The notes beneath the pieces are model-generated. The model made no database searches. It was given only the letters and a program-made list of their open reading frames with translations, and had not been told where the DNA came from. Positions 7,378 to 12,802 of a DNA stretch of 33,197 nucleotides are shown here, in pieces (the first letter of the stretch is position 1; every line of letters begins with the position of its first letter). A program made the translations under genes and the position numbers. The stretch spans positions 1 to 33,197 of the IMG/VR virus record IMGVR_UViG_3300017727_000070; one strand, given 5' to 3'. The DNA is from a virus.

Positions 7378-7406
7378 GGGCGATGGCTGAGGTCATCGCC
7401 CTTTTT
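7378..7406 (+). terminator. Intrinsic terminator after gp32
   Basis: GGGCGATG (7378-7385), an 8-nt loop, CATCGCCC (7394-7401), then five T. It is an 8-bp G+C-rich stem followed by a U tract, on the plus strand only. It ends the early block and overlaps the last codon of the convergent tape-measure gene. Confidence 0.92.
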
Positions 7407-9951
7407 AGTATGCAGGCTGTGCACCAAACATACCAACTGTTCTATCAATGTGATTTGGTGCTTCGTTAATAGTTGTAATATTTGAGTTAGTTGGTGCATT
7501 TATTTGAGTTGACACACCAGCGCCGCCAGCTGAACCAGCAGCCCGGTCCATACTTGAGAACAACTCTGCTGACACGTCGTTCCCGCGTTGAATAGCTTGT
7601 AACATTTCTGCTCCAGTTGCATTTGGATTTTTTGCAAATAAATCTTGTGCGAATTGAATTGCCGCACCACTACCTTTATATTGAGTTAGACCTTGTGCAT
7701 TCTTTGAAGCACCTGGAAATTGTATTCCGAACTTATCTTGAATGAAGTCAACTGTTTTCAACGTATCTCTGCCCGAGTTACTCCCTGTAAATCGATCTTT
7801 TAAACCCATAACATTTCTAGCGCTCTGGCTTTGCTTACGCTCAGTATCGTAAGTATTTGAACGAAGCTTTTCAAACTGCGCTTGTTTTTCGGGGTCTTTG
7901 TATTCTAACGTTGGACCATCTTCTGGGTCATCAAACATGTCGCGCGGAAGTTCAATCATTTCTGCCCCTTGGTTCTCAGATTCAAACTTGGCTAAGGCAG
8001 CTTCTGCTTCCTTAGCTGCAACCCGTGACGCATCGAATCTTTTTTCTTTAACTTCTTGAGTAACTGTCTTAACAGGGTTTTGTGTTTTGGTTTGAGGTTT
8101 TGCTTGACCTTGTGCTGATTCCTTTTTATAGAAAGTATTAATAATAGCACCACCTATTGTTTTTGTTGGAAGAACCGAAGCTAATACGCTTCCTACAACA
8201 TTACCAATTGCATAACCAGCTGTACCTGTTAAGGCTGAAGCAAGAAAACCAACACCACCTGTAGCTGCAGTAACAGCACCAATCGCAATAGCTGCACCTG
8301 CGGGCCCCGTCAACGCTTTAATAAATTCTGTTCCAACTGCATCTTTCTTTTCGTTTTCACTTGCCTCGGGGTCTTCAAGTATTGTTTTAATTGCACTATT
8401 TAAAAATATACCTTCAACAACACCACCTATAACAGGTACTCTTTTTAGTACACTAGGAAATTGTTTTGCGATGCCTTTAGTAGCATCTTTAATTTTATTC
8501 ATTGGATTTAACCTAGAAAAAAATCCACCTTTTGGCTTTGGTGCATCTACCACTGATGAGCCCGGTGCATTAGTAATGTTCTTTATTGTGTTAGAAGAAG
8601 CGTTTGCACCAGCTTGACCAGCATTGCTAATTGTTTGAGCTGGGCCTGTAAGAGTGGGTTGTTTTAATGATGGTACACCAGTAGAAGCTTTCTTTCCGCT
8701 AAAAGGATTGAGCCTACTAAATAAACCTTTACCTTTATCAACTAAATTTTTACCAAGCTTTGAGCCTAAGAGTTTTTTGCCGCCGAGAGCGGCGAGTATC
8801 GTTCCTCCGTACTCATTAATTATTTCACTGATAAGCCCTTCGCCTTTTTTATTTTCTGCACCTTTACCAAGATCACTACCTTCAATATCTTCTAATGAAT
8901 CTGCAATATCTTGAAACGTTTTATCACGTTCTTTTTCTGTTTCAGCTTTCTTAAGGTCATTACCAGTTAGAACTTTTACCAATGAACTAGTGTTTTCCTT
9001 AACTGCTTCAACAATTGCGTTATTTGATTCAACAATATCTCCAGAAAATAAATTGTTAGTGTCAAATCCACCTGGTCCTGGCTGAGCTTCAATTTGCTCT
9101 GGTATCTTAGGAAAAAATTTGTCTTTTAATCCTTGTACTTTATCTGTTACAGATGATACAGCACCAGCTACTTTTTCTTTTACTACAGCTCTTCTGAATG
9201 GAATTCCCTTTTGGCCTTTGTCTTTACCAAACACATCTCTAGCAAGATTTATAGCGCCTTTGCCAAGCTTCTTTACACCGCCAAATATCATTTTGAATGG
9301 CTTAGAAACAGCTTTAAATGTATCGACAACATTCTTAACGCCATCACGAGCAAATTGACCAATACCACGTTGTGTAACGATAGCTGCCAGAAAAAAGTCT
9401 TGAACCATATTTGCAAAGAAGCCTCTATCTCCCCCGCCAGACGCCCCGCCTTTTCCTTTTCGTCTTGATCCTCGTCCACCTGTGGCAGCATTTTTAATAT
9501 TGTCTGAAATAGACTTAAAAATACCTTTTTGTTCTTTGCCTTGTTCTAATTTTAATAAATCTTGGTTCTGTTCACGATTTGTATCAACAGAAACATTTTG
9601 ATTTAAATCTTCGATACCTTGAAGTATTTGTTCAAGTAATTCAGTTTGGCGCTTGGTTTCATTTTTACTAAAGATATTTTTAAAACCTTCTGATACATTT
9701 TTAAATGACTTAAAAGGTGTCATTACAGCATCACCAATATCTTCAATAGTGTCTCCAATAAATTTACCAGGTGCAGCTAGTGTTTCCTTTATTTTTCTAA
9801 AAGGAGATGTTACTGAATCTTTTACATCATCAATTGTTTTCTTGATGCCTCCGGCAAAACCGCCTCGCGCTTGTTGGCTAAGCTGTTTATTGGTTTTTTT
9901 CAGCTCTGCAACTAAAGCTTGAAAATCTTCATTGGTTATTGGTTCACTCAT
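7405..9951 (-). CDS. Probable tail tape-measure protein (gp29 position), 848 aa
   Basis: Long, low-complexity, mostly helical protein. Residues 1-130 are charged helices with repeated SPF/TPF/KPF turns. Residues ~155-185 are a Gly/Arg/Lys-rich linker. FSRLNP occurs twice (about 409 and 477). Residues ~555-605 are a hydrophobic Gly/Ala segment (AIAIGAVTAATGGVGFLAS) of the membrane-like kind common in tape measures. The C-terminus is Asn/Thr-rich (INAPTNSNITTINEAPN). It follows gp26/gp51 directly with an ATGA overlap; the frameshifting chaperone pair immediately upstream is the usual place for the tape measure. In T4, gp29 sets tail length. At ~1.5 A per residue this protein would span ~125 nm. 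No peptidase or lysozyme motif was seen. Sequence similarity to T4 gp29 is not evident to me, so the call rests on position and composition. Confidence 0.72.
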   Translation of the reverse strand: MSEPITNEDFQALVAELKKTNKQLSQQARGGFAGGIKKTIDDVKDSVTSPFRKIKETLAAPGKFIGDTIEDIGDAVMTPFKSFKNVSEGFKNIFSKNETKRQTELLEQILQGIEDLNQNVSVDTNREQNQDLLKLEQGKEQKGIFKSISDNIKNAATGGRGSRRKGKGGASGGGDRGFFANMVQDFFLAAIVTQRGIGQFARDGVKNVVDTFKAVSKPFKMIFGGVKKLGKGAINLARDVFGKDKGQKGIPFRRAVVKEKVAGAVSSVTDKVQGLKDKFFPKIPEQIEAQPGPGGFDTNNLFSGDIVESNNAIVEAVKENTSSLVKVLTGNDLKKAETEKERDKTFQDIADSLEDIEGSDLGKGAENKKGEGLISEIINEYGGTILAALGGKKLLGSKLGKNLVDKGKGLFSRLNPFSGKKASTGVPSLKQPTLTGPAQTISNAGQAGANASSNTIKNITNAPGSSVVDAPKPKGGFFSRLNPMNKIKDATKGIAKQFPSVLKRVPVIGGVVEGIFLNSAIKTILEDPEASENEKKDAVGTEFIKALTGPAGAAIAIGAVTAATGGVGFLASALTGTAGYAIGNVVGSVLASVLPTKTIGGAIINTFYKKESAQGQAKPQTKTQNPVKTVTQEVKEKRFDASRVAAKEAEAALAKFESENQGAEMIELPRDMFDDPEDGPTLEYKDPEKQAQFEKLRSNTYDTERKQSQSARNVMGLKDRFTGSNSGRDTLKTVDFIQDKFGIQFPGASKNAQGLTQYKGSGAAIQFAQDLFAKNPNATGAEMLQAIQRGNDVSAELFSSMDRAAGSAGGAGVSTQINAPTNSNITTINEAPNHIDRTVGMFGAQPAY

Positions 9952-10133
9952 GCGTATTGAATTCTCTTTTGACTTTGGTTTTGTCTTTGTATTCTTTCGT
10001 TTTCTTCTTTAATATGTTCTTGTAATAATGAAACGTAAATCTGCCTTTCCCACGGTAGCATATCACCTAATTCTGTTAAACTATACTTATGATGTTGGGC
10101 CATTGCAAAATTTGTTTGATAATGATTCAACAA
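9948..10133 (-). CDS. gp51: gp51-like baseplate hub assembly catalyst / tail chaperone, likely made by -1 frameshift
   Basis: The visible ORF of 61 codons has only TTG codons near its beginning (10133) and an internal ATG at 10103. The frame is open further upstream to 10181, across the slippery site at the end of gp26. The product has the chaperone signature YSLTELGDMLPWERQIY followed by a charged helix (KEENERIQRQN). gp51 is needed in T4 for assembly of the central hub. A -1 shift on the U UUU UUC heptamer (10163-10157) would fuse 69 residues starting LIGLSHESLLNHYQ to gp26, giving a ~301-aa fusion like the G/GT chaperones of other tailed phages. The stop overlaps the tape-measure ATG (ATGA). 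Free translation from TTG or the internal ATG cannot be excluded. Confidence 0.78.
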   Translation of the reverse strand: MLNHYQTNFAMAQHHKYSLTELGDMLPWERQIYVSLLQEHIKEENERIQRQNQSQKRIQYA

Positions 10134-10153
10134 TGATTCATGCGAAAGGCCGA

Positions 10154-10852
10154 TTAGAAAAAAGATGCAATTCCTTTCATTTCAACTTTGTTTTTGTGTT
10201 TATCATGCTTACATGTAAATTCTATCGTGTGTTTTAGTTCTGGTTGATTAGAAATATATTGTTGAATTGCTTCAAGATTCTCATGTGACATAGAATCAAT
10301 AAATTGTACAACTTCTTTTTCTGTTACATCATTTACACTATAAACGTTATCTTCGTCAAAGATTGTATCAATCGATTGAATAATTGCGTGATTAAAGATT
10401 TCTTCATCAGTACCTTTAATCTTTTGTGATGATTTCAATGTAAGTGGTTTAAGTGTAAGACCAACTGTATCATTTAACTTAATAGTTGAATCTACTTTTT
10501 TCTTTGGATACACAACTTCGATTTTAGTAAGGTCTACACTTACTTCAGTGTATTCTCCACACTTTTCGCATTTAAGATTAAGTGTGCTTTCTTCACCGAT
10601 ACTTTTAATTCTTAATTGAAGAAAAAGATATTCAATGTCGTATAATGTGCAGTCATCTGCCTTAACTTTATTGAACGTGCAAGCGGTTACAATGTCTTTC
10701 ATTGCGTTAAGAATCTGAGTTTCATCTTCAGACTCTTGTGCTATCATAAGTAACTTTTCTTCTTTAACAAGAAAAGGACGGTATTCTACTTCTTTACCTG
10801 TCGAAGGTATAGTAGTTATGTATTTTGTTGATTCTAGTGTTGGTAGTGGCAT
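10154..10852 (-). CDS. gp26: gp26, baseplate hub assembly protein / tail chaperone
   Basis: 232 residues (T4 gp26 has 208). The N-terminal region ESTKYITTIPSTGKEVEYRPFLVKEEK is the hallmark of the T4 baseplate family (Pfam PF12322, from memory). A zinc-ribbon-like set follows: C95-x2-C98 (CEKCGEYTEVSVDL) and C214-x-H216 near the C-terminus. The middle is helical. In T4 it acts in hub formation; in this layout it is also the upstream partner of a frameshifted chaperone pair. It starts at an ATG 21 nt after the gp54 stop, with no Shine-Dalgarno sequence, and ends on the slippery sequence ASFF-stop. Confidence 0.87.
   Translation of the reverse strand: MPLPTLESTKYITTIPSTGKEVEYRPFLVKEEKLLMIAQESEDETQILNAMKDIVTACTFNKVKADDCTLYDIEYLFLQLRIKSIGEESTLNLKCEKCGEYTEVSVDLTKIEVVYPKKKVDSTIKLNDTVGLTLKPLTLKSSQKIKGTDEEIFNHAIIQSIDTIFDEDNVYSVNDVTEKEVVQFIDSMSHENLEAIQQYISNQPELKHTIEFTCKHDKHKNKVEMKGIASFF
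10157..10163 (-). other. Programmed -1 ribosomal frameshift site, U UUU UUC
   Basis: On the minus strand the last gp26 codons read GCA TCT TTT TTC TAA. T TTT TTC fits X XXY YYZ in the zero frame, and slipping one base back gives TTT TTT CTA ATC, exactly the gp51 frame. The zero-frame stop follows immediately, which helps pausing. The -1 frame is closed by TGA at 10184-10182, only a few codons before the site, the usual layout for a true frameshift. No convincing downstream pseudoknot was found by eye. Confidence 0.72.
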
Positions 10853-12358: not shown

Positions 12359-12802
12359 TCAAGTTAGCAACTTAATTCCTAATCCTTTGATAGTATCTTC
12401 GGTCCATACTTGAAATGTCCAACCTTTATCTAAGCAATAATCATTTGCTGCTTCCCACTTAGATTGATTCTTTATGTATGTCATTACCTCACGAAGGTAC
12501 TTCTGTGACTTACGAGTGGGCCTCTTAGGCTCCTTTGTCTCTTTCTTAGGTTTGATCTCAATTAAATACTCATTACCGTTACTCATTGTCAAACGTAAAT
12601 CTGGAAAATATCGATGTAAACGATTATCAGTCTTACAACGATACGGAACGATTACTTCTTCACTCGACCATTTTAAAATATCGGGGTTTTCATCACACCA
12701 TTTAAATACTTGACGTTCCCACAGAGAACGAAATATACATTTTGTATGGTCACCATTATATTTACTAGTGTTTTTTACTTTGTATTTTCCTTTGTATGCC
12801 AT
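12359..12802 (-). CDS. gp4: gp4, head completion protein with nuclease fold
   Basis: 147 residues, as in T4 gp4 (also called gp50, ~150 aa). It shows a TnsA-like PD-(D/E)xK pattern: Glu29 in RSLWERQVFKW, Asp68 in RYFPDLRL, and Glu82-x-Lys84 in EYLIEIKPK. T4 gp4 is needed to finish filled heads before tail joining; its nuclease fold may trim packaged DNA ends (inference). The C-terminal half is helical (YLREVMTYIKNQSKWEAANDYC). The start is the ATG at 12802, just 16 bases from the divergent gp48 ATG. A near-consensus late box on the minus strand (12812-12819) lies in that gap. Confidence 0.87.
   Translation of the reverse strand: MAYKGKYKVKNTSKYNGDHTKCIFRSLWERQVFKWCDENPDILKWSSEEVIVPYRCKTDNRLHRYFPDLRLTMSNGNEYLIEIKPKKETKEPKRPTRKSQKYLREVMTYIKNQSKWEAANDYCLDKGWTFQVWTEDTIKGLGIKLLT

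Follow-up and report, generated by a model that had tools for sequence, protein, structure and literature searches.

gp26 and gp51 of a T4-like viral contig as a probable tail assembly chaperone gene with a predicted -1 frameshift

Introduction

In phage lambda, a short tail assembly chaperone and a longer version made by -1 frameshifting (gpG and gpGT) act on the tape measure protein, and this G-T frameshifting is described as widely conserved in long-tailed phages 'except T4' (PMC5009743). Papers citing Vladimirov et al. 2022 credit that work with two findings on T4-like phages: some of them have one short and one long fused gene (PMC10885494), and there are poly-T frameshift signals in T4-like TAC-N genes, TAC-N being the short form of the tail assembly chaperone (PMC12846349). 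The work itself (Vladimirov, Gautam and Davidson, Virology 2022;566:9-15) is cited here through these papers. Here we describe the gp26/gp51 locus of a marine T4-like virus, the IMG/VR record IMGVR_UViG_3300017727_000070, analysed over its whole length of 33,197 nucleotides (the window), where the two reading frames overlap at a slippery sequence and are predicted to be joined by a -1 ribosomal frameshift.

A review of T4 itself lists both proteins as chaperones of hub assembly, with gp51 not present in the finished particle (PMC3004832); another source lists both proteins and does not contain the word frameshift (PMC5349666). A described system with a similar signal is dnaX of E. coli, where a Shine-Dalgarno-like sequence inside the gene precedes a tandem -1 slippery heptamer (PMC5600365). 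There, the product of the frameshift is the short one (PMC5009743), whereas in the window it is predicted to be the long one. In its scheme, with one short and one -1 frameshifted long chaperone, the window locus is predicted to resemble lambda gpG/gpGT. The slippery site of lambda differs from that of the window. The abstract of Vladimirov et al. is said to state that frameshifting is conserved in several T4-like groups and that T4 uses separate genes 26 and 51.

Results

A slippery heptamer abuts the stop codon of gp26

On the minus strand, gp26 ends with ATG AAA GGA ATT GCA TCT TTT TTC TAA. The heptamer T TTT TTC is in register for tandem -1 slippage and directly adjoins the gp26 stop, and the -1 frame is open from the TGA at 10184-10182 to the TGA at 9950-9948, with the gp51 motif MLPWERQIY inside. 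The elements of the junction are:

10154..10852, minus strand: gp26, the short form (TAC-N) of 232 amino acids (aa), assigned from PF12322, PHROG 150 and the predicted fold
10157..10163, minus strand: slippery heptamer T TTT TTC in X XXY YYZ phase, from the window sequence and relatives
10154..10156, minus strand: TAA stop of the 0 frame, immediately 3' of the heptamer, from the window sequence
10182..10184, minus strand: upstream limit of the open -1 frame, a TGA six codons before the heptamer, from the window sequence
9948..10163, minus strand: -1 frame extension (gp51 or TAC-C), 71 codons from the heptamer, from PHROG 634, PHROG 150 and dN/dS
10172..10177, minus strand: AAAGGA, a possible internal Shine-Dalgarno-like stimulator, from anti-Shine-Dalgarno energy and shuffles

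The predicted fusion has 232 + 69 = 301 residues. The initial annotation had described a perfect U UUU UUC heptamer at the TCT TTT TTC TAA end of gp26, a TGA six codons before it, a -1 frame that then runs open into gp51 and a fusion of about 301 residues, and the window sequence agrees with this description.

We consider it very probable, on very strong comparative evidence, that gp26 and gp51 are one tail assembly chaperone gene that is read in two ways. Most ribosomes would stop at the TAA and release the 232-aa short form (TAC-N, gp26). A minority would slip back by one base, with the Phe-tRNAs on UUU UUC of U UUU UUC re-pairing with UUU UUU, and would then read the -1 frame to give the 301-aa long form (TAC-NC, gp26-gp51). 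If lambda gpG/gpGT is a guide, the short form may coat the tape measure protein encoded by the adjacent gene and the extension may recruit tube subunits. What we show here is the heptamer with its conservation, selection for coding in the -1 frame and a predicted fold like that of chaperones; the slip and its efficiency, the stimulator and the binding roles are predictions.

In-phase heptamers with six T are not unique to this site: there are three in 24 open reading frames (ORFs) of the window (10,227 codons; the 24 were our selection from the window's ORF list), but that of gp26 is the only one at the last codons of its gene. The absence of a clear Shine-Dalgarno sequence before the gp51 starts was considered as evidence for frameshifting and dropped, as it proves nothing: gp26 and the downstream gene also have no clear one.

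The heptamer is conserved among relatives

A scan of IMG/VR identified 105 relatives, of which the best 80 were kept; these represent 79 distinct loci, one of them (L006) nearly identical to the window. The heptamer T TTT TT[C/T] stands at the end of gp26 in every one of the 79 contigs (window included, 59 have TTTTTTC and 21 TTTTTTT). In all 79, gp51 homology is found in the -1 frame and extends back to the heptamer, which is also where the homology query started. The position of the 0-frame stop varies, the heptamer stays put: across 103 sequences (a set without the phage VP-1), the stop is 0, 3, 6, 9, 18 or 24 nucleotides past the heptamer, most often 0 (39/103) or 3 (44/103).

In addition, 28 named records were hand-picked from the 761 records matching gp26 and the 634 matching the extension: 24 have the overlapping layout, three (T4, RB49 and Aeromonas ZHF) have separate genes, and the last, Campylobacter phage CJLB-14, was not analysed. 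The heptamer, here T TTT TT[C/T/G], is present in 23 of the 24 phages with overlapping layout; in two of the 23, both rhizobial, the 0 frame reads Phe-Leu at this site. A profile of the extension that was built from the viral contigs matches the -1 ORF of 21 of the 24 phages with E values of 5.3e-7 or better, and all 21 have the heptamer. They belong to the Kyanoviridae, the Straboviridae (Vibrio, Aeromonas and Cronobacter phages), the Pootjesviridae and Emdodecavirus, and include two Vibrio phages with no family in the record. Among 46 ORFs of other frames, used as decoys, there was one match, at E 5.3. The conservation that the initial annotation had proposed to look for at related gp26/gp51 loci is thus present in nearly all of them.

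The junction of VP-1 (Ackermannviridae; L101, about 2730-2744) reads CAC GTT TTT CGC TAA, which is near the GTTTTT motif of Vandenendeviridae and Andersonviridae (PMC12846349).

For statistics, we used 31 representatives of the viral contigs with less than 80% identity, window included, and a larger set of 54 with named records. The set of 31 is the cleaner one: in the set of 54, VP-1 was dropped for having no heptamer and the other named records were located via their T6.

The -1 frame encodes a predicted extension of gp26 that is under selection

For the extension, there are matches to PHROG 634 ('baseplate hub assembly catalyst', 1.2e-26) and to positions 231-282 of PHROG 150 (3.5e-7). The 282 positions of PHROG 150 span the junction, as gp26 matches positions 5-232 of the same profile (4.2e-60); a published family profile therefore crosses from gp26 into gp51, although PHROGs have no curated cut-off. 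The -1 ORF of the window consists of the extension alone, without a gp26-like N-terminal domain of its own.

Codons 3-34 of the extension, all upstream of a codon 35 that is frequently ATG among relatives, are under purifying selection: the ratio of non-synonymous to synonymous substitutions (dN/dS) is about 0.12 (182 pairs with 70-98% identity, 46 distinct sequences). None of the 46 sequences has a stop in this stretch in the -1 frame, while all 46 have one in the +1 frame. The +1 frame was taken as control because the 0 frame, which also has stops in 46/46, contains the gp26 stop by construction.

The main alternative is that no fusion is made and gp51 is a separate gene, translated either from an ATG of its own (10103 or 10061) or by ribosomes that re-initiate past the end of gp26. 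Starts do exist in the -1 ORF of the window (TTG at 10133 and 10130, ATG at 10103 and 10061), and the statement of the initial annotation that gp51 has no ATG near its beginning was too loose for the window itself. In the 24 named records with overlapping layout, gp51 is drawn as a separate coding sequence (CDS) in 20, left out in four and never joined to gp26, and the frequent ATG at codon 35 would suit an independent start. However, a start at codon 35 is an unlikely route, because the selected codons 3-34 would stay untranslated. Moreover, the first 34 codons of the extension contain no ATG in 17 of 80 loci, and no ATG, GTG or TTG in nine of the 80, so that the absence of gp51 starts, a further check that had been proposed, is found in a part of the relatives. 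The five distinct sequences among those without any start differ by 23 synonymous and 24 non-synonymous codons, which is weak evidence on its own. A separate gp51 also leaves the heptamer unexplained, and T4-type gp51 proteins have this stretch and a gp26 domain together in a single ORF. We regard this alternative as highly unlikely; the frameshift reading is the one supported by the conserved heptamer, the selected -1 frame and the loci without start codon.

Phages with separate genes 26 and 51 have no heptamer near the end of gp26

T4, RB49 and Aeromonas ZHF encode gp26 and gp51 in two separate genes, which in T4 are divergently oriented; the Straboviridae include both layouts. T4 gp26 and gp51 are of the same family as the window locus, both matching PF12322. 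T4 gp51 (249 aa) is a single ORF that matches PF12322 at 3.9e-52 and ends in the extension that the window locus encodes in the -1 frame. Thus, T4 has two genes and no heptamer at the end of 26, whereas the window has one gene with a predicted -1 frameshift. Our T4-type set has 14 gp26 sequences, several of them near-identical to T4 and one (L111) cut at a contig end. In the 13 complete genes, no X XXY YYZ heptamer is found within the last 30 codons: T4 gp26 reads GAG TTC TTT at the position that matches the heptamer, and has an unrelated TTTAAAG 32 codons from its end. The heptamer thus goes with the layout in which a frameshift is needed for the long form, and is missing from the layout in which the long form has a gene of its own.

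Two further loci have unusual forms of gp51. One T4-type gp51 (L117, 3001-3746) switches to another reading frame near residue 120, a single case that may be a sequencing indel. The Campylobacter phage CJLB-14 (L091, 2022-2762) has a hypothetical CDS of 246 aa that resembles part of the gp51 extension at its end (E 0.04) and is perhaps a long form in a single ORF, as in T4.

Unlikely readings of the T run: polymerase slippage or a codon accident

The site is a run of T, and RNA polymerase could slip on it, in which case mixed mRNAs would encode both forms. Runs of seven or eight T are present in 25 of the 103 sequences, but in the other 78 (42 of the 54 representatives) the run has only six. 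A run of six T is short for polymerase slippage. The C that 59 of 80 loci have at the seventh base suits a ribosomal heptamer and shortens the run, and we judge transcriptional slippage to be even less probable than a separate gp51. Finally, there is a negligible chance that the heptamer has no role and is an accident of how Ser/Asp/Asn-Phe-Phe is encoded at the AT-rich end of a gene: given the amino acids and the codon use, the mean chance of T TTT TTN is about 0.32 per sequence, so any single heptamer means little, but the heptamer is present in 31 of 31 viral-contig representatives (product of chances about 10^-17, ignoring shared descent) as compared with 3 of 26 interior Phe-Phe pairs, and it is absent from the 13 complete T4-type gp26 genes, which do not need one.

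gp26 has a chaperone-like predicted fold

gp26 matches PF12322 (T4_baseplate) at 6.2e-56, with 190 bits against a cut-off of 24.5. Its AlphaFold2 model (mf54de446937b) has a mean predicted local distance difference test score (pLDDT) of 88.3. The top three structures found with VIA-align are 3FGX (Z 7.9), 2OB9 (Z 7.3) and 3KLU (Z 6.4), and the next row has a Z of 4.7; the alignment to 2OB9 has 84 aligned residues with a root mean square deviation of 4.2. All three are termed phage tail assembly chaperones (PMC9603447). These proteins, Rbstp2171 (3FGX), HK97 gp13 (2OB9) and YqbN (3KLU), resemble residues 1 to about 94 of the gp26 model, with 8-13% identity and about the N-terminal 40% of gp26 being covered. 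Sequence searches of solved structures returned nothing useful. According to the model, the N-terminal part of gp26 is chaperone-like.

gp26 differs from lambda gpG/gpGT in its 232 aa and in what follows its chaperone-like N-terminal part, namely predicted strands as well as two Cys/His clusters (CEKC and CKHDKH). The clusters suggest a second, zinc-ribbon-like domain, with the Pfam zinc-ribbon matches of gp26 being below cut-off.

A possible internal Shine-Dalgarno-like stimulator

In the window, AAAGGA is found 9-14 nucleotides upstream of the heptamer and has an anti-Shine-Dalgarno energy of about -4.9 kcal/mol. It contains the Gly codon of the conserved G-[LI]-x-[SDN]-F-F end of gp26. This codon is GGA or GGG in 38 of the 52 representatives that have the Gly (54 examined), as compared with 146 of 413 Gly codons elsewhere (Fisher p 2.8e-7). 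Anti-Shine-Dalgarno pairing 6-17 nucleotides upstream of the heptamer is stronger than in synonymous shuffles, with p 1.6e-6 for the 54 representatives and 3.8e-4 for the 31 from viral contigs; the excess is smaller in a control zone shifted 6 nucleotides upstream (p 1.1e-3 and 0.036, respectively) and not significant in control zones 12 to 120 nucleotides upstream. These statistics are inflated by shared descent. Two observations speak against the element: 15 of the 54 representatives pair more weakly than -4.4 kcal/mol, and a zone 22-30 nucleotides upstream, of weaker pairing, exceeds shuffles to a similar degree in the 31 representatives from viral contigs. AAAGGA is a possible internal Shine-Dalgarno-like stimulator.

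The dnaX gene of E. coli likewise has such an element upstream of its tandem -1 heptamer, but it also has a downstream hairpin, while none is conserved at the gp26/gp51 loci. A non-conserved downstream structure is possible, because single-sequence folds of the 60 nucleotides downstream are more stable than shuffles (mean z -1.65, n 54; -1.26 in the window; -0.32 for the upstream control). The single match in Rfam, SNORD34 with E 0.39, is below the gathering score.

We tentatively propose, with less confidence than doubt, that an internal Shine-Dalgarno element of the dnaX style, 9-14 nucleotides upstream of U UUU UUN, tunes the chaperone frameshift of T4-like phages rather than conserved downstream structure; that heptamer and element were lost on duplication into 26 and 51; and that the duplication replaced ancestral frameshifting in the T4 line.

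The gene downstream of gp51

The next gene is:

7405..9951, minus strand: probable tape measure protein of 848 aa, from position and composition

This ORF follows directly after gp51, with its ATG (9951) overlapping the gp51 TGA, and its product has no Cys or Trp and 21% A+G. It diverges fast, with 75% and 55% identity to its counterparts in two relatives (L001 and L002) and significant matches in five loci only. No convincing match was found in Pfam, PHROGs and NCBIfam (the best, with E 0.0025, is an unrelated-looking PHROG), nor by tblastn of the protein against phages. The gene at the same place in HTVC008M is annotated as putative tape measure and matches tape measure PHROGs, phrog_58 with 2.8e-14 for the 483 aa that were covered. 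A direct BLAST between the 848-aa protein and its HTVC008M counterpart, with E 0.008 in simple stretches, was not used. From position, composition and the HTVC008M gene, the 848-aa gene probably encodes the tape measure protein. The initial annotation had placed the junction just before the tape measure gene: this is supported by the same three points, with no convincing profile match to add to them. The two ORFs overlap and lie directly upstream of the 848-aa gene, but that gene has no tape measure match of its own.

In six relatives that we opened, a hypothetical ORF of 90-141 aa is present between gp51 and the next long gene (L106, 2903-3235; L093, 4893-5165; L092, 4911-5240; L087, 3205-3624; L088, 3189-3614; L089, 3185-3607). 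Three are Kyanoviridae of Pelagibacter or Methylophilales and three are rhizobial phages; the window has no such ORF, as its next ATG overlaps the gp51 stop. Elsewhere in the window, a gp4-like head closure gene (12359-12802) matches the N-terminal domain of TnsA-like endonucleases (PF08722, 4.8e-19).

Discussion

Several points weigh against a frameshifted chaperone gene at this locus. One of the 24 named phages with overlapping layout, VP-1, has no X XXY YYZ heptamer, and the extension profile is not significant for VP-1 (E 0.044), Stenotrophomonas phage Yut2 (0.061) and Klebsiella phage RCIP0023 (1.8), the latter two having the heptamer nonetheless. The relatives are not independent data points. 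No downstream pseudoknot or hairpin is conserved, RNAalifold predicting no pair for 36 of the 54 representatives. The structural likeness to chaperones is middling by VIA-align's own warning, as all Z scores are under 8, and Foldseek on the PDB returned nothing at E 0.001 or better, with HK97 gp13 at rank 49 (E 4.1). The tape measure identity of the neighbour of gp51 is itself indirect. In T4, genetic studies favour a place of gp26 within the hub (PMC3004832), where a pure chaperone would not be found. Finally, we found no experiment on a gp26/gp51 frameshift of T4-like phages in the literature, of which few subscription journals were covered.

Because citing papers credit the frameshift of T4-like chaperones to Vladimirov et al. 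2022, the window seems to add one more member to a kind already predicted. The tie between T4-like gp26/gp51 and lambda-type chaperones that the initial annotation had suggested is supported by our data, but is not new. The frameshift reading is therefore a well-supported further case of an existing prediction and its novelty is modest; the Shine-Dalgarno-like element and a counted loss of the heptamer in T4-type genes were not found in print, within the same literature coverage.

The frameshift would place gp26 and gp51 of marine T4-like phages in the lambda-type scheme of a short and a long tail chaperone, with duplication as the alternative solution of T4 for having both forms. It would also account for the way gp51 is shown in records of the overlapping layout: as a tiny gene of its own in most, and not at all in the others. 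Since some lineages have the heptamer and others do not, the ratio of short to long chaperone becomes a question that can be tested.

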